Assembly (NCBI GenBank): GCA_902635795.1
Contig: CACPPH010000002.1
Coordinates: forward strand, 1-64,000
Direction of reading: 5' to 3'
Length of the DNA stretch: 64,000 nucleotides
DNA from: an uncultured Pelagibacteraceae bacterium
GTDB taxonomy: Bacteria; Pseudomonadota; Alphaproteobacteria; Pelagibacterales; Pelagibacteraceae
Shown here: positions 44,760-53,427 of the stretch, piece by piece
Position numbering within the stretch: position 1 is the first letter of the stretch
Layout: every line of letters begins with the position of its first letter
The notes under the pieces: model-generated
What the model was told of the DNA's origin: nothing
Database searches by the model: none
Seen by the model: only the letters and a program-made list of their open reading frames with translations
Program-made: the position numbers and the translations under genes

Positions 44760-45171
44760 AATCATTGGAAAATATATAAAGAATTTAAGCTTTAATATTC
44801 CTAATGCTAAAACTTTTTTTTTACTTACTAAAGATATCGCAAATTATAAAATTAATATTGATATTAAAAGCAATCAAATTAAAGAGAGCATCATAGAAGT
44901 TTTAACTTCGATCAATTTAGTTCCCACCAGAGATGATTTTGAAATGATAAACACCAAAATTGTTTTTGCCACCATTGTAGAATTACCAAACAATAAATTG
45001 GAAAAAAATGAAATAGAAAAAATTGTCTTAGTAAAAGTGCCATCTGAAATTTATGCAGAACTGAGAAAAATATTTGTAAATTTATTTGAAAATTCAGGAT
45101 TTAGAGACATAAAAATAAGTGAAAAAGTTGATTTTCAAAAACTATACGATATGAAAAAATTTCAAAAATAG
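44749..45171 (+). CDS. secB: Protein-export chaperone SecB
   Basis: YIKNLSFNIPNAKTFF and C-terminal PSEIYAELRKIFVNLFENSGFRDIKISEKVDFQKLY. Confidence 0.85.
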   Translation: MTYKIIGKYIKNLSFNIPNAKTFFLLTKDIANYKINIDIKSNQIKESIIEVLTSINLVPTRDDFEMINTKIVFATIVELPNNKLEKNEIEKIVLVKVPSEIYAELRKIFVNLFENSGFRDIKISEKVDFQKLYDMKKFQK

Positions 45172-45821
45172 TTTTTTTTCAATTCCTTTTTAATAAATTC
45201 TTTGTGTGAATTAAGTTCATTTTCAGAAATTTGCAAAATTTTTTTATTATAAACATTATTTTTTACAATCTTGGTTTCTAAACTATTAGATGATAAATTA
45301 AATTTTGGTTCTTTTGCGTCTAGAAGATTAATATAAACCTCTCTTAATAATTCACAATCTAACAGTGCATTATGTTTGGTTCTTCTAGAAAGATCCACAT
45401 TGAATCTTTTACATAACGCGTCCAGTGAGTTTGATGCACCTGGAAACTTATTTCTGGCTACTGCTAAAGAATCAATTATCAGTTTATTATCTATTAACTC
45501 TTTTTTTAATAGACCTAACTCACCATTTAAAAAACTTAAATCAAAAGGCGCATTATGTATTATAATTTTTTTTCCATTTATAAAATCAAGAAAATCATCA
45601 GCTACTTCTTCAAAAGTGCCTTTGTCACTTAAGAATTCTTTTGAAAAACCATGTACTTTAAAAGCATCAAGAGGAATATCTCTTTTTGGATTTATTAACC
45701 TATGAAACACTTTTCCTGTAGCAACAAGATCTTTGGTTTCGATACAAGCAATTTCAACAATTTTGTGTCCTTCCTTAAATGATAATCCTGTTGTTTCTGT
45801 GTCTAAGAATATCTCATTCAT
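45162..45821 (-). CDS. dnaQ: DNA polymerase III epsilon subunit
   Basis: IFLDTETTGLSFKEGHKIVEIACIE; HNAPFDLSFLNGEL; HNALLDCELL. Confidence 0.96.
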   Translation of the reverse strand: MNEIFLDTETTGLSFKEGHKIVEIACIETKDLVATGKVFHRLINPKRDIPLDAFKVHGFSKEFLSDKGTFEEVADDFLDFINGKKIIIHNAPFDLSFLNGELGLLKKELIDNKLIIDSLAVARNKFPGASNSLDALCKRFNVDLSRRTKHNALLDCELLREVYINLLDAKEPKFNLSSNSLETKIVKNNVYNKKILQISENELNSHKEFIKKELKKNYF

Positions 45822-46380
45822 ATTTTGCTAATATATCCATTAAATTTTTTTTTAAAATCTTTTTATTTTTATCGTTAACAATTACGTGATCACTATAAGT
45901 TTCTTTTTTTCTATCGCTAAGTTGTTTTTTATCTAATATTTCAAATATTTTCCTGCTTCCTCCTTTTGATAAAAATCTTTTTAATCTTAAATTTTTTTTA
46001 GCTTTTATAAAAATTATTATATTAAATTTATTCATCAATTTGCTTTCAATTAAAAGGGGAATTTCGTAAAAAGCAAATTTTTTCCTGATATTCTTTTTTG
46101 AAAAATTTGCCATCTCTTTTCTCACTAGCGGGTGAAGTATTTTTTCAAGCTTCTGAATGTTGCTTTTCTTTTGTGTAATTTTTTTTCTTAATACTATTTT
46201 TAGGTTTAATTTACTTTTAATTTTAAATCTTTTTCTTATTTTATTTTGGATATGTTTATTCTTGTAAAAACTCTTTACAATTTTGTCAGCACTAAATAAT
46301 GGACCTTTGTTAAAGGACAAAATTTTACTAGCAGTTGTTTTGCCCGAAGCCAATGAACCTGTTATACCAATTTTTTTCAT
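45814..46380 (-). CDS. coaE: Dephospho-CoA kinase
   Basis: IGITGSLASGKTTASKIL; position between dnaQ and aroE. Confidence 0.92.
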   Translation of the reverse strand: MKKIGITGSLASGKTTASKILSFNKGPLFSADKIVKSFYKNKHIQNKIRKRFKIKSKLNLKIVLRKKITQKKSNIQKLEKILHPLVRKEMANFSKKNIRKKFAFYEIPLLIESKLMNKFNIIIFIKAKKNLRLKRFLSKGGSRKIFEILDKKQLSDRKKETYSDHVIVNDKNKKILKKNLMDILAKYE

Positions 46381-47198
46381 TTAAGTTTTGAATGTAACAA
46401 CTCTATTAATTTTTGATCAATTTCTGGGTTGATTTTATTCCACAGGTAAAAGGATTTTTGTCCTTGGTATATAAACATATCAAGCCCATTGAAAACTTTT
46501 ACATTTTTTCCTTTTAGATACTTTAAGCTTTTTGTTTCCAGAGGGTTATAAATTGTATCGATATAGATGAGATTTTCATTTTTTGTTTCAAAATTGAAGT
46601 TAAAATCTTGACCATTTTTTAACCCTAAACTTGTAGCGTTAATTATAATATCAAAATTCTTTAATTCATGATGAAAATTATTCCACTCAATGATGTTTAA
46701 ACTTTTAAATTTTTTTTTTAAAAAAAAACATTTTTCTATAGTTCTATTTACTATTGAAATATTGCCGATCCCAGATTTTTGGAGTGCAAGAATTATAGAT
46801 GGGGATACGCCCCCAGCCCCTATAACTAATGTTTTTTTTTTGGAAATATTATCAACCTCTTTTAAATAGGCTGCCTGTAAACCAAATACATCTGTATTTT
46901 CTCCGATAATATTATTATGTTCATCTAGGTAAATTGTGTTTACTGAACCAGTGGTTTCTGCTTCATTGATTAAAATATCTAGGTAGGGAATAATTTTTTG
47001 CTTGTATGGCAAAGTAACATTTATGCCGTTAAGATCTTTGTTTTTGATCTTTTGAACAATATTTCCTATTTCTTTATCACTTGTTTCTAATATAGAATAA
47101 TCAGCATTTAAGCCATATTTTTTGAACCAATAATTATGGAGAACAGGCGACAGCGAATGTCTTATAGGGTTCCCAATTATTCCAAACTTTTTTTTCAT
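46377..47198 (-). CDS. aroE: Shikimate dehydrogenase
   Basis: FGIIGNPIRHSLSPVLHNYWF; GINVTLPYKQ; VIGAGGVSPSI. Confidence 0.97.
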   Translation of the reverse strand: MKKKFGIIGNPIRHSLSPVLHNYWFKKYGLNADYSILETSDKEIGNIVQKIKNKDLNGINVTLPYKQKIIPYLDILINEAETTGSVNTIYLDEHNNIIGENTDVFGLQAAYLKEVDNISKKKTLVIGAGGVSPSIILALQKSGIGNISIVNRTIEKCFFLKKKFKSLNIIEWNNFHHELKNFDIIINATSLGLKNGQDFNFNFETKNENLIYIDTIYNPLETKSLKYLKGKNVKVFNGLDMFIYQGQKSFYLWNKINPEIDQKLIELLHSKLK

Positions 47199-47779
47199 TT
47201 TTTATACAAATTAATATAATTTAAAATCTCTTTTATTGGCAGACCCATTATGGAATAACGATCACCTTTTACATACTCAAAAAGCTTAAAACCTTCAGCT
47301 TCAATTTGATAAACACCATAAGCTAACAATGTTTCAGTTTTTATTTTATGTAAATAATTTAAAATTTGTTTTTCAGAAAGATTCTTCATTTTTAACTCAG
47401 ATGCTTCAGTGTAATTCCAGATCATAGCACCATTTTTTGAAATACACACAGAGCTTATGAGGTGGTGTTTAGAATTGTTGAGTTTTTTTAGGATTTCAAA
47501 GGCTTCCTCTCTTGATTTTGGTTTATTTATCACTTTGTTATTGAATGCAACCACACTATCGGCACCAAGAACTAACTGATCTGGGTTTTTGCTACTTACC
47601 TTGATTGACTTAATCTCTGCTAGATTCTTAGATATAACAGTTGGATCTGCGCCTTCAGCCTCAAGGGAAATTTTGATTTCATCCTCATCTACATTTGAAG
47701 ATATCACCTTACTAGCAACTTTATGCTCATCAAGGATTTTTTTTCTTACACCGCTCTTGGAAGCTAAAATAATTTTCAT
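47195..47779 (-). CDS. maf: Maf family nucleotide pyrophosphatase
   Basis: IILASKSGVRKKIL; LVLGADSVVAF; NKPKSREEAFEIL. Confidence 0.96.
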   Translation of the reverse strand: MKIILASKSGVRKKILDEHKVASKVISSNVDEDEIKISLEAEGADPTVISKNLAEIKSIKVSSKNPDQLVLGADSVVAFNNKVINKPKSREEAFEILKKLNNSKHHLISSVCISKNGAMIWNYTEASELKMKNLSEKQILNYLHKIKTETLLAYGVYQIEAEGFKLFEYVKGDRYSIMGLPIKEILNYINLYKK

Positions 47780-48594
47780 TTATTTTTTTTTATCTCTATA
47801 ATTTTCAAAATAGATGCAGCTGTTTCCTCTACAGATCTTCTTGTAACATCAATTATAGGCCAATTATTCTTTTTAAAAAGATTTTTTGAATCAATGATTT
47901 CTTTCTTAATAAACTCCAAATTTGTATATTCTCTAAGTTTATTATCTTTCATAATTGCAACCCTGTTTCTCCTAATATCTGCTAATCGTTCGGGATCAGC
48001 AACAAGGCCTACAATACATGCTTTTGTGTTTGAAATTAAATCCTTTGGTATTTTCTGTTCCAAGACTAATGGAATGTTGATTGTTTTATAACCTCTGTTA
48101 GCTAGATAAATTGAAGTAGGTGTTTTACTGGTTCGACTAACTCCTAATAGTATTACGTCAGCGTTTTCTATATCATCTACTTTTTTGCCGTCATCATGGG
48201 ACATAGTAAATTGTATAGCTTCGATTCTTTTATAATAATCATCATCTAAAACATGTTGTGCACTTGGTTTATGAATAGCCTTTTGATTTAATAGTTTTGA
48301 AAAACTTAAAATTAAATTTCCTAAAATTCCAAAACAGGGAACATTGTTTTTTTCGCTTTGATTTGATATGTATTTGGCTAGTCTGGTTTCAACAATAGTA
48401 TAAAGAATAAGCGAATTTTTAGAATCGTTACAGCTCTTGATGATTTTGTCAATTTGTTGTTCTGTTCTAATAAATGCAAATTCTTTTTTTTCATAGGTAA
48501 AATTTGCAAACTGAGATTTTAAAGATAAAAAAATTCTATCTAAGGTTTCACCAGTAGAGTCAGACACAAGATATACATTGTATTTTTCGTTCAT
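47776..48594 (-). CDS. DUF299 / pyruvate,phosphate dikinase regulatory protein family
   Basis: VYLVSDSTGETLDRIFLSLKSQF; LGVSRTSKTPTSIYLANRGYK. Confidence 0.95.
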   Translation of the reverse strand: MNEKYNVYLVSDSTGETLDRIFLSLKSQFANFTYEKKEFAFIRTEQQIDKIIKSCNDSKNSLILYTIVETRLAKYISNQSEKNNVPCFGILGNLILSFSKLLNQKAIHKPSAQHVLDDDYYKRIEAIQFTMSHDDGKKVDDIENADVILLGVSRTSKTPTSIYLANRGYKTINIPLVLEQKIPKDLISNTKACIVGLVADPERLADIRRNRVAIMKDNKLREYTNLEFIKKEIIDSKNLFKKNNWPIIDVTRRSVEETAASILKIIEIKKNK

Positions 48595-48866
48595 ATATTT
48601 GTTAATAAATTTATAATAAATTATGTTTTTTCACTTTTTTTTGTAAAAGTTAAAAATAATTAACATTAATTAACACTATTTCTACATTTTATTCGATGTT
48701 GATAATCATGTTTTACTAATGTTTATAAGATTAATAAAGTCTACAAATTATGAATTTTTTAAAAAAATTATTAAGCTAAAGATGTATAAAATATGTATAA
48801 AAAGTTATAGCCTTTTTAAACAGGAACTAACATCAAAAACAACGTTTTAAAAAAACTTAATTTAAT
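48595..48866. other. Candidate chromosomal replication origin (oriC)
   Basis: 272-bp AT-rich gap between DUF299/ppsR and hemE, the oriC-flanking genes described in Caulobacter and Rickettsia; three TGTTNATAA motifs (48600, 48697, 48720), each one mismatch from TGTGNATAA; gene blocks diverge from it. Confidence 0.72.
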
Positions 48867-49874
48867 ATGAGCAATCTTAAAGAAATTTTATTAGACAGAA
48901 ATTCTTGCAAATCAATTTGGTTTATGAGACAAGCTGGAAGATATTTACCTGAATTTAGAAAGATTAGATCTGAAAATAAGGATTTCATAAAACTTTGTTT
49001 AAACAGTGACCTTAGTTCAGAGATAACACTTCAACCAATCAAAAGATTCGATCTTGATTCGGCAATAATTTTTTCTGATATTTTAATGATACCGTATGCT
49101 CTCGGTCAAAATGTAACTTTTACCAGCGGAAGGGGACCAAAACTTAGTAAGTTCGACATAAAAACTTTTCTAAAAAAGAGTGGAAAAGATATCTCTCAAA
49201 ATTTAAGTCCTATTTATAAAGCGATTGAAATAACAAGAAGAAAATTAAATAAAAAAAAATCATTAATATCTTTTGTAGGTGCTCCGTGGACTCTAATGAT
49301 CTATATGCTCGAATTAAAGAATTCACATAGCAGCAAAGCGCAAGTAAAAATAAATTTTAAAGAAGAAGAAATCCAAATAATTATAAAAAAATTGATTGAA
49401 TTTTGCTGCATTCATATAAAAAAACAGGCAGAATCAGGCTGTGATGTTGTTCAAATATTTGACTCGTGGGCAAGTAAAATTCCAGAAGATAAATTTGACA
49501 AATATTGTTATGCACCTAATCGAGAAATAGTAGAATTTTGTCAAAAAGAAAAAATACCTAGTATTTGTTTTCCTAAAGGAATAGGAAATAGATACAAAAC
49601 CTTTAATGAAGTTGTAAAACCGAATGGAATTAATTTAGATTATGACATAGATCCTTTGTGGGCAAAAAACAACCTTAAGGATGTCGTGTTGCAAGGAGGT
49701 ATGAGTCCTAAATTGCTTTTGGATGCAGATGAGGAGATGTTTGCAGGAGCGACGAAATACATTCAAATATTTAAAGATATTCCTTATGTTTTCAACCTAG
49801 GGCACGGTTTACTTCCCGAAACAGATCCTGATAAAGTAAAAAAATTAATTGAATTTTATAGGAAATTTAAATGA
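48867..49874 (+). CDS. hemE: Uroporphyrinogen decarboxylase
   Basis: IWFMRQAGRYLPEFRKIR; GAPWTLMIYM. Confidence 0.98.
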   Translation: MSNLKEILLDRNSCKSIWFMRQAGRYLPEFRKIRSENKDFIKLCLNSDLSSEITLQPIKRFDLDSAIIFSDILMIPYALGQNVTFTSGRGPKLSKFDIKTFLKKSGKDISQNLSPIYKAIEITRRKLNKKKSLISFVGAPWTLMIYMLELKNSHSSKAQVKINFKEEEIQIIIKKLIEFCCIHIKKQAESGCDVVQIFDSWASKIPEDKFDKYCYAPNREIVEFCQKEKIPSICFPKGIGNRYKTFNEVVKPNGINLDYDIDPLWAKNNLKDVVLQGGMSPKLLLDADEEMFAGATKYIQIFKDIPYVFNLGHGLLPETDPDKVKKLIEFYRKFK

Positions 49875-50863
49875 ACAACGAGCACCCAGAGGTAAAATTT
49901 GGTAAGACAGGCGTTTTAATAATTAATTTAGGAACTCCAGATTCCACAAATTGGTGGGATATAAGAAAATACCTAAAAGAATTCCTTTCAGATAGGAGAG
50001 TTATAGAAGTAAATCCATTTATTTGGAAGATTATCCTTCACCTTTTCATTTTAACATTCAGACCATCAAAAACTGCACATGCTTATAAGAAAATATGGAG
50101 GGAGGAGACAAACGAGTCACCATTACTTTACTTCACCAAGAGCCAAGCAAAAAAATTAAATGAAAAAATTGGAAATGATAATTTAATTGTGGATTTTGCA
50201 ATGAGATATGGAAACCCCAGCATAAAATCGAGATTAAATGCGCTTAAAATGAATGGCTGTGAAAACATAATCATACTACCTTTATATCCACAGTATGCCG
50301 CTGCTACTACTGCCACAGTTTGTGATGAAGTTTACAGATCTTTGATGCAAATGAGGTGGCAACCGAGCCTACAAATCGTTCCACATTATGAAAGTGAACC
50401 TCTTTATATAGAAGCACTTGTAAACAGTATCGAAAATAAATTAAAAGTTATTGATTGGAAGCCTGATTTGATAATTTCCTCCTATCACGGAATTCCTAAA
50501 TCTTATTTTGACAAGGGAGATCCTTACCACTGCTACTGCCACAAAACTACGAGATTAATAAAAGAAAAATTTAATAAAATAGATATTCAGACTACTTTCC
50601 AATCAAGGTTTGGCCCTCAAGAGTGGTTAACACCATATACAGACAAAACCATAGAAAGTTTGCCCGAGAAAGGAGTTAAGAATTTATTAGTTATTTGTCC
50701 AGGGTTCGCATCTGATTGCGTTGAAACTCTAGAAGAAATTAATATTCAAGGTAAAGAAAGTTTTTTAGAAAAAGGAGGTATTAATTTTGAACTGATATCT
50801 TGCTTAAATGATAATTTGGAACATATAAAACTTTTTGAAAAGCTCGTGAAAAAATATATATAA
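49871..50863 (+). CDS. hemH: Ferrochelatase
   Basis: GVLIINLGTPDST; SYHGIPKSYFDKGDPYHCYC; ICPGFASDCVETLEEI. Confidence 0.98.
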   Translation: MNNEHPEVKFGKTGVLIINLGTPDSTNWWDIRKYLKEFLSDRRVIEVNPFIWKIILHLFILTFRPSKTAHAYKKIWREETNESPLLYFTKSQAKKLNEKIGNDNLIVDFAMRYGNPSIKSRLNALKMNGCENIIILPLYPQYAAATTATVCDEVYRSLMQMRWQPSLQIVPHYESEPLYIEALVNSIENKLKVIDWKPDLIISSYHGIPKSYFDKGDPYHCYCHKTTRLIKEKFNKIDIQTTFQSRFGPQEWLTPYTDKTIESLPEKGVKNLLVICPGFASDCVETLEEINIQGKESFLEKGGINFELISCLNDNLEHIKLFEKLVKKYI

Positions 50864-51295
50864 ATGAATTTATATTTATTATTTAAATCATTACATTTAA
50901 TAGCGGTTATATCCTGGATGGCTGGTTTACTCTATTTACCAAGAATATTTGTTTACCACTCAGAAGCAGATCATGACTCTCAAAAGAAAGTTTTCAAGAC
51001 CATGGAAAGAAAACTTTATAATTACATAATGATGCCAGCTATGTTGTTATCCTGGCTATTTGGCTTCTTGTTAATTCATAATATTGGATTTGATATATTT
51101 AAAGAGCTGTGGATGCAAATAAAGACACTGGCAGTTGTTATATTAACTTTTTATCATTTTACACTTGGAAAATATTTGAGCGATTTTGCCATAGACAATA
51201 ATGAAAAATCATCAAAATTTTTTAGATTTTACAATGAAATACCCACAATAATACTAGTCGTAGTTATATTTTTGGTTATTTTTAAGCCTTTGTAA
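50864..51295 (+). CDS. hemJ: Protoporphyrinogen oxidase HemJ (CopD-like)
   Basis: FKSLHLIAVISWMAGLLYLPRIFVYHSE; membrane protein after hemH. Confidence 0.95.
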   Translation: MNLYLLFKSLHLIAVISWMAGLLYLPRIFVYHSEADHDSQKKVFKTMERKLYNYIMMPAMLLSWLFGFLLIHNIGFDIFKELWMQIKTLAVVILTFYHFTLGKYLSDFAIDNNEKSSKFFRFYNEIPTIILVVVIFLVIFKPL

Positions 51296-51302
51296 TTAGG
51301 GC

Positions 51303-51330
51303 TTGAAATTTTTTTAAAAAGTCATATATT
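51303..51330 (+). promoter_or_regulatory. Candidate sigma70 promoter for rho
   Basis: TTGAAA, 16 nt, TATATT; 32 nt before the rho ATG. Confidence 0.45.
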
Positions 51331-51362
51331 TTTATAACATTCCTTTAAACAATAACAATCTC

Positions 51363-52637
51363 ATGAACTTACAACAACTTAAGCAAAAAAATCCTGCAGA
51401 GCTAATCAATGAGGCCGAAAAATTAGGCATAGAAAATCCAAGCACTTTAAGAAAACAAGAAATTCTTTTTGCTATTTTAAAAAAACTTGCTGAAAAAAAT
51501 GAACAAATAACTGCAACAGGAGTCTTGGAGGTGCTACAAGATGGCTTTGGTTTTCTTAGAGCTATAGAGTCAAATTACCTTCCAGGCCCGGACGATATTT
51601 ATGTAAGCCCGAGTCAAATACGAAAGTTTGGTCTAAGAACAGGAGACTCGGTCGAAGGAGAGATTAGAGGACCTAAAGATGCCGAAAGATATTTTGCTCT
51701 CTTGAAGGTAAACAAAATAAATTTTGATGATGCAGATAAAGGCAAGAACAAAATTGCCTTTGATAATTTAACCCCATTATATCCAAATGAGAGGATAAAG
51801 CTGGAGGTGGAGATTAATAAGGTTGAAAAGAAACCCGATAACACAGCAAGGTTAATTGATTTAGTAAGCCCGATTGGAAAAGGACAAAGATCACTTATCG
51901 TATCACCACCAAGGGCAGGAAAAACAATTATCCTTCAAAATATAGCGCAGTCAATTACCGCTAACCATCCAGAATGCTACTTAATGGTTTTATTAATTGA
52001 CGAGAGACCCGAAGAGGTTACAGACATGCAAAGATCAGTAAAAGGTGAAGTTGTGGCTTCTACATTTGACGAGCCTGCCTCAAGGCACGTTGCAGTAGCT
52101 GAAATGGTAATTGAAAAAGCAAAAAGATTAGTTGAACACAAAAAAGATGTTGTAATATTGTTGGACTCTATTACAAGATTAGGAAGAGCTTATAATGCTG
52201 TAATTCCAAGTTCTGGTAAAGTTTTAACAGGGGGTGTAGATGCGAACGCTCTTCAAAGACCAAAGAGATTTTTTGGTGCAGCAAGAAACGTTGAGGAAGG
52301 AGGTTCTTTAACAATTATTTCAACTGCATTAATAGACACCGGAAGCAGAATGGATGAAGTTATATTTGAAGAATTTAAAGGAACAGGTAATTCCGAACTG
52401 ATTCTTGATAGAAAAGTTGCTGATAAGAGAATTTACCCAGCATTAGATATAACTAGATCTGGGACAAGGAGAGAGGAGCTTTTATTTGCGAAAGATGAAC
52501 TTTCAAAAATGAATGTTTTACGAAGAATTATAAGCCCGATGGGAACTATGGATGGAATCGAATTTTTAATTTCTAAGTTGAAGAATACAAAAAATAACTC
52601 TGATTTCTTCGACTCTATGAATAAATCCGCTAACTAA
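51363..52637 (+). CDS. rho: Transcription termination factor Rho
   Basis: [44 protein letters not shown]. Confidence 0.99.
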
Positions 52638-53352: not shown

Positions 53353-53427
53353 GCGGGCATAGCTCAGTGGTAGAGCGTCTCGTTGCCAACGAGAAGGTCG
53401 AGGGTTCAAGTCCCTTTGCCCGCTCCA
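53353..53427 (+). tRNA. tRNA-Gly (anticodon GCC), encoded CCA
   Basis: gcgggca acceptor, D-arm gctcagtggtagagc, anticodon arm ctcgtTGCCAacgag, T-arm gagggttcaagtccctt, tgcccgc-t-cca. Confidence 0.97.

Follow-up and report, generated by a model that had tools for sequence, protein, structure and literature searches.

Where does chromosome replication start in SAR11, a group that is among the most abundant marine bacteria? The question is raised by a gap between the genes ppsR and hemE in a 64,000-nt stretch of DNA from an uncultured member of the Pelagibacteraceae (hereafter the window), which a sequence-only reading had put forward as a candidate oriC. Conserved synteny, the enrichment of DnaA boxes, the GC skew of relatives and the symmetry of inversions strongly support this proposal, and the chromosome of this SAR11 bacterium very probably has its single replication origin here. 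By position it would be an origin of the Caulobacter/Rickettsia type, in a variant form with a shifted box position 6 and without CtrA. A literature search returned no paper that maps a SAR11 origin to the ppsR/hemE gap, while an automatic Pelagibacter entry may exist in predicted-origin databases (DoriC). New here are the change from C to A at box position 6 across SAR11, the missing CtrA and, close to hemE, a conserved element resembling DnaA-trios, which is degenerate in this genome.

The intergenic region and its sequence elements

The gap spans 272 bp (48595-48866) and is in fact the longest non-coding gap within the 64-kb window, having previously been counted among the longest. Its GC content is 16%, compared with 25-40% in 2-kb windows, placing its AT content above the genome average. 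From it, ppsR and hemE diverge on the minus and plus strand, respectively, and NCBIfam agrees with the names that had been given to these flanks (DUF299/ppsR, hemE) and to the neighbours maf, aroE, coaE, dnaQ, hemH, hemJ and rho. Searches of the gap with Rfam and tRNA models gave no match; the sole tRNA of the window is tRNA-Gly(gcc) at 53353-53427. The features are as follows:

45162..47779, minus strand: dnaQ, coaE, aroE and maf, reading away from the gap (NCBIfam, synteny)
47776..48594, minus strand: ppsR (PRK05339 family, DUF299/COG1806), left flank (NCBIfam)
48595..48866, no strand: candidate oriC intergenic region
48600..48608, minus strand: DnaA-box variant 1, TTATTAACA; offset of about 6-10 common to most relatives
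48657..48675, plus strand: a pair of TAATTAACA words at a distance of 10 bp, each differing from the box by one mismatch (own-genus alignment)
48697..48705, minus strand: DnaA-box variant 2, TTATCAACA; offset of about 103 kept within the own genus
48720..48728, minus strand: DnaA-box variant 3, TTATAAACA; offset of about 126 kept within the own genus
48783..48802, minus strand: tandem TGTATAAA repeats with an 11-bp period, kept in nearly all own-genus sequences
48814..48829, plus strand: terminal element of box-like TTTTAAACA, GGAA spacer and CTA, a degenerate counterpart of the box, spacer and DnaA-trios of relatives
48867..49874, plus strand: hemE, right flank (NCBIfam)
49871..52637, plus strand: hemH, hemJ and rho, reading away from the gap (NCBIfam, synteny)

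The three words reported earlier are exact (TGTTAATAA at 48600-48608, TGTTGATAA at 48697-48705 and TGTTTATAA at 48720-48728) and correspond to three TTATNAACA boxes, all on the minus strand; the canonical box TTATNCACA does not occur in the gap. Box forms are distinguished by position 6, with A in TTATTAACA, C in TTATCCACA and T in TTATTTACA. The gap is also the densest box cluster of the window, and a hand estimate from the window rate gives an expectation of about 0.001 three-box clusters within 129 bp per 64 kb. The enrichment over shuffled sequence that had been anticipated did not appear across the window as a whole (7 TTATNAACA found, 8.7 expected), so that the signal in the window is one of local clustering only. 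Since the DnaA box has about 24 variants with a single mismatch, of which TTATNAACA was chosen post hoc, a cluster in one window is no more than suggestive; the comparison across SAR11 is decisive for the box evidence. Among the other elements, the TAATTAACA pair falls in a block of the gap that is strongly conserved in the own genus, and its words are possible weak boxes. Where the own genus has the TGTATAAA repeats, other genera carry an array of TTATNAACA boxes, and the repeats may represent weak boxes or the hemE promoter.

Synteny across SAR11 and other alphaproteobacteria

HemE was found in 137 of 148 SAR11-family genomes, and 60 loci of 8 kb each were extracted. Divergent ppsR and hemE with a gap of 258-297 bp are present in 57 of these, most of which show the full order dnaQ-coaE-aroE-maf-ppsR<>hemE-hemH-hemJ-rho within the 8-kb extracts; all three exceptions belong to genus g8. 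The ppsR<>hemE gap itself also occurs in 26 of 30 sampled loci of other alphaproteobacteria. The interval between hemE and COG1806 ('DUF299') is the experimentally mapped origin of Caulobacter and the predicted origin of Rickettsia (PMC1914354), and the earlier identification of RP001 with DUF299 is correct, as COG1806 flanks both origins (PMC1914354). With Cori of Caulobacter crescentus (hemE/CC0001-COG1806), the SAR11 gap shares the flanking genes, their divergence, high AT content and DnaA boxes, but Cori is longer (404 bp versus 258-297 bp), and SAR11 differs in having mainly A at position 6, no CtrA ortholog and no clear CtrA-spaced sites. The oriC of Rickettsia prowazekii (hemE/RP001) has the same flanks, an AT content of about 82% and the intergenic position in common with the SAR11 gap; that origin measures 384 bp, and CtrA sites have been described there.

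Enrichment and conservation of the variant box

Conservation of the motif in orthologous hemE upstream regions had been named as a check on the candidate, and the motif is indeed conserved: the SAR11 gaps hold 109 copies of TTATNAACA where 7.3 are expected, a 15-fold excess, together with 20 copies of TTATNCACA (1.9 expected). When all 4-N-4 words were counted de novo in 43 non-redundant SAR11 gaps, TTATNAACA ranked first by excess, being present in 38 of the 43 with 5.4 expected, and TAATNAACA was observed 25 times against an expectation of 5.5. Box offsets are fixed within genera, at 6, 103 and 126 in the genus of the window and at 9, 85, 105, 190, 200 and 234 in g4, and 14 loci of a second collection (uncultured Pelagibacteraceae; 4 repeats) agree on the boxes. 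Within the own genus, the exact TTATNAACA is absent from the G119 subclade (L018, L020, L059), whose box offsets are instead occupied by TGTTGATAT and TTAATAT-type words. In the gaps of 26 loci from other alphaproteobacteria, the excess lies with TTATNCACA (18 versus 0.4 expected) and TGATNCACA (4 versus 0.5), and TTATNAACA is at chance (1 versus 0.5). The suggestion that the lineage uses a box variant of its own thus gains support and would extend to the whole SAR11 order.

The excess of TTATNAACA might also reflect AT-biased decay of canonical boxes under an unchanged DnaA specificity, a reading that concerns the boxes only and is compatible with an origin at this place. SAR11 genomes are AT-rich, and TTATNAACA and TTATNCACA interchange (A/C) at identical offsets among SAR11 gaps, both of which fit such decay. 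It is nevertheless unlikely: decay also predicts T at position 6, and the T variant remains at chance (6 versus 7.2 expected), as does the G variant (2 versus 1.2), whereas A is 15-fold enriched; moreover, two AT-rich gaps from outside SAR11 (24-27% GC) keep TTATNCACA and contain no TTATNAACA.

Boxes that outlast a flanking gene

The region could alternatively be nothing other than a long divergent promoter of ppsR and hemE, with the boxes serving as operators, either for a repressor or for DnaA in the role of a transcription factor. Both genes need promoters in the gap, promoter-like matches are present and TATAAA-like words near hemE are conserved, but the promoter-like sites number only 6 against 3.5 in shuffled sequences. 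Here, lineages that lost one flank are informative. In genus g8 (L041-L043), HemE shares only some 30% identity with SAR11 HemE and its gene is not beside ppsR, an indication that a foreign or paralogous hemE has taken the place of the original; in G008 of this genus, a 233-bp stretch at the 5' end of ppsR contains three boxes. A search of 11 genomes of f77, a sister family in the same order (sampled from G223-G236, with no positive control among them), did not find ppsR, the PEP synthase/PPDK regulator, and both genomes that were read have two boxes 120 bp apart upstream of hemE, one site being TTATCAACA in one genome and TTATCCACA in the other. The retention of boxes beside ppsR without hemE and beside hemE without ppsR argues against plain promoter conservation, and the skew minimum and the inversion axis of complete chromosomes, described below, coincide with the gap, making a promoter alone a very unlikely account.

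Skew, box clusters and inversions in complete chromosomes

Because the genome of the window is only 65% complete (39 contigs), genome-wide tests rest on relatives, namely two complete SAR11 chromosomes sampled at 61-69% (G020, 1,308,759 bp; G005, 1,160,202 bp). In both, the ppsR/hemE gap is the densest cluster of TTATN(A/C)ACA boxes, with 4 in 280 bp, and every sampled 280-bp window outside it holds at most 2. The minimum of cumulative GC skew had been expected at the gap. This holds for orientation-corrected skew, whose minimum falls in the hemE bin of G020 and G005 with maxima nearly opposite hemE, and less precisely for raw skew, with a minimum within about 25-55 kb of hemE in both. A 638-kb contig of the own genus (G119; C1, L141-L172) is ambiguous: its gene-strand bias turns at hemE, its raw skew is flat and rises past hemE, and its orientation-corrected skew around hemE is inverted relative to the two complete genomes. 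Between G020 and G005, 394 orthologs conserve their distance from the gap (r = 0.81), 183 of them lie on its other side and 84% of the latter are strand-flipped. Symmetric inversions thus pivot about the gap, with the best axis 15-25 kb away on a 10-kb grid, and orientation is unchanged in a core region extending over several kb around the gap.

A further alternative places the origin elsewhere within tens of kb, for instance beside dnaA, and regards the gap as just syntenic. Published SAR11 alignments are rotated to the start of dnaA (PMC12421898), and offsets of 15-55 kb from the gap are seen on coarse grids for the minima of raw skew and for the best axis of inversion. The distance between dnaA and the gap is 63-75 kb, with dnaA to the right in g4 and g10 and to the left in g1 and g5; in G008 and G016 of genus g8 the gene lies about 73 kb from ppsR. 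Whichever the side, it is always transcribed outward from the gap. A location beside dnaA or elsewhere nearby is extremely improbable, given that dnaA switches side by inversion at a nearly constant distance from the gap, that its upstream regions in relatives show no box enrichment (1 versus 1.65 expected) and that no other sampled 280-bp window of G020 or G005 holds at least three boxes. For SAR11 genome maps, the gap would be a better zero than dnaA, and an origin defined at the base level, 63-75 kb from dnaA, would serve as a reference for peak-to-trough estimates of growth rate from ocean metagenomes.

DnaA and a possible shift in box specificity

A dnaA search of the window's own genome (65% complete) gave no match, which is attributed to incompleteness, as 27 of 28 relatives have the gene. 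Their DnaA proteins have the RDHTT motif of the recognition helix intact, and the preceding residue in domain IV is G in g5, g7, g8, g9 and g10 and N in g1-g4 (dnaA loci L176-L199), a G431N change in E. coli numbering. As a sole cause of the box shift this change was rejected, because g5 and g10 have GRDHTT and also use TTATNAACA. Boxes ahead of dnaA were likewise considered as independent proof of TTATNAACA specificity and rejected for lack of enrichment. On balance, the comparisons slightly favour a change of DnaA-box specificity across the whole SAR11 order, with A replacing C at position 6 (TTATNAACA instead of TTATNCACA), accompanied by the loss of control by CtrA at an origin that is otherwise ancestral; in part of the order, the G-to-N change before RDHTT would have followed. 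Such a shift would make this lineage, which lost CtrA, a simple and testable example of DnaA and its sites evolving together.

CtrA and a candidate unwinding element

Pelagibacter has been reported to be without CtrA (PMC2877005). In agreement, a CtrA ortholog is absent from SAR11, where the best matches reach 31-36% identity; the query is validated by orthologs of 68-83% identity in three of four other alphaproteobacteria examined. CtrA-spaced sites in SAR11 gaps were rejected as lacking a specific signal, since TTAA-N7-TTAA (30 versus 13.5 expected) is no more enriched than the same pair at N6 spacing (36 versus 13.7). Some hemE origins have been reported without CtrA sites, which are therefore a variable feature of this origin class (PMC1914354).

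Most SAR11 gaps contain, 40-55 bp before hemE, the motif (A/C)ACA followed by 4 bases often ending in C and by triplets of the CTA-TTA/ATA type, and AACANGACC, GACCNATTA and CCTANTACA from this element are among the highest de novo z-scores. The listing of the element was anchored partly on CTA. With anchoring on the box only, T is concentrated at the middle of the triplets (0.56 versus 0.26 and 0.10), a contrast exceeding all 2000 shuffles, although the p-value is optimistic as the sequences are related. On the opposite strand the triplets are of the TAG/TAA type with the box on their 3' side, and a box 3' of the trios is the polarity of the basal unwinding system (BUS), for which the criterion applied was a DnaA box, a spacer of 0-16 bp and at least 3 trios. 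The DnaA-trio motif is 3'-GAT-5' (PMC8287927). Many SAR11 gaps resemble the Bacillus-type system in ending with a box, a spacer of 4 nt and correctly oriented CTA/TTA/ATA triplets; a difference lies in the window genome, where the element is degenerate and has one trio only. Because of this degeneracy, and because a generic box-spacer-trio scan performed no better than shuffles, the conserved hemE-proximal element is put forward as a proposal for the unwinding element.

Under the proposed mechanism, DnaA would bind TTATN(A/C)ACA boxes, mostly with A at position 6, via the helix-turn-helix of domain IV, and several same-strand boxes together with weaker tandem sites would build a DnaA oligomer. 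The duplex would open in the AT-rich part, most likely beside the hemE-proximal element, in which a box, a 4-nt spacer and CTA/TTA triplets may be read on the other strand as DnaA-trios. Two forks would move outward, co-directionally with the flanking genes and dnaA, whose orientation is observed. The gap is also a candidate part for replicating SAR11 plasmids.

A separate observation concerns the gene next to hemE. HemH encoded there is 68-86% identical in most genomes and 26-31% identical in L022, L029, L031, L032, L037, L044, L055, L056 and L060, so that one type of ferrochelatase seems to replace the other at this single place beside hemE.
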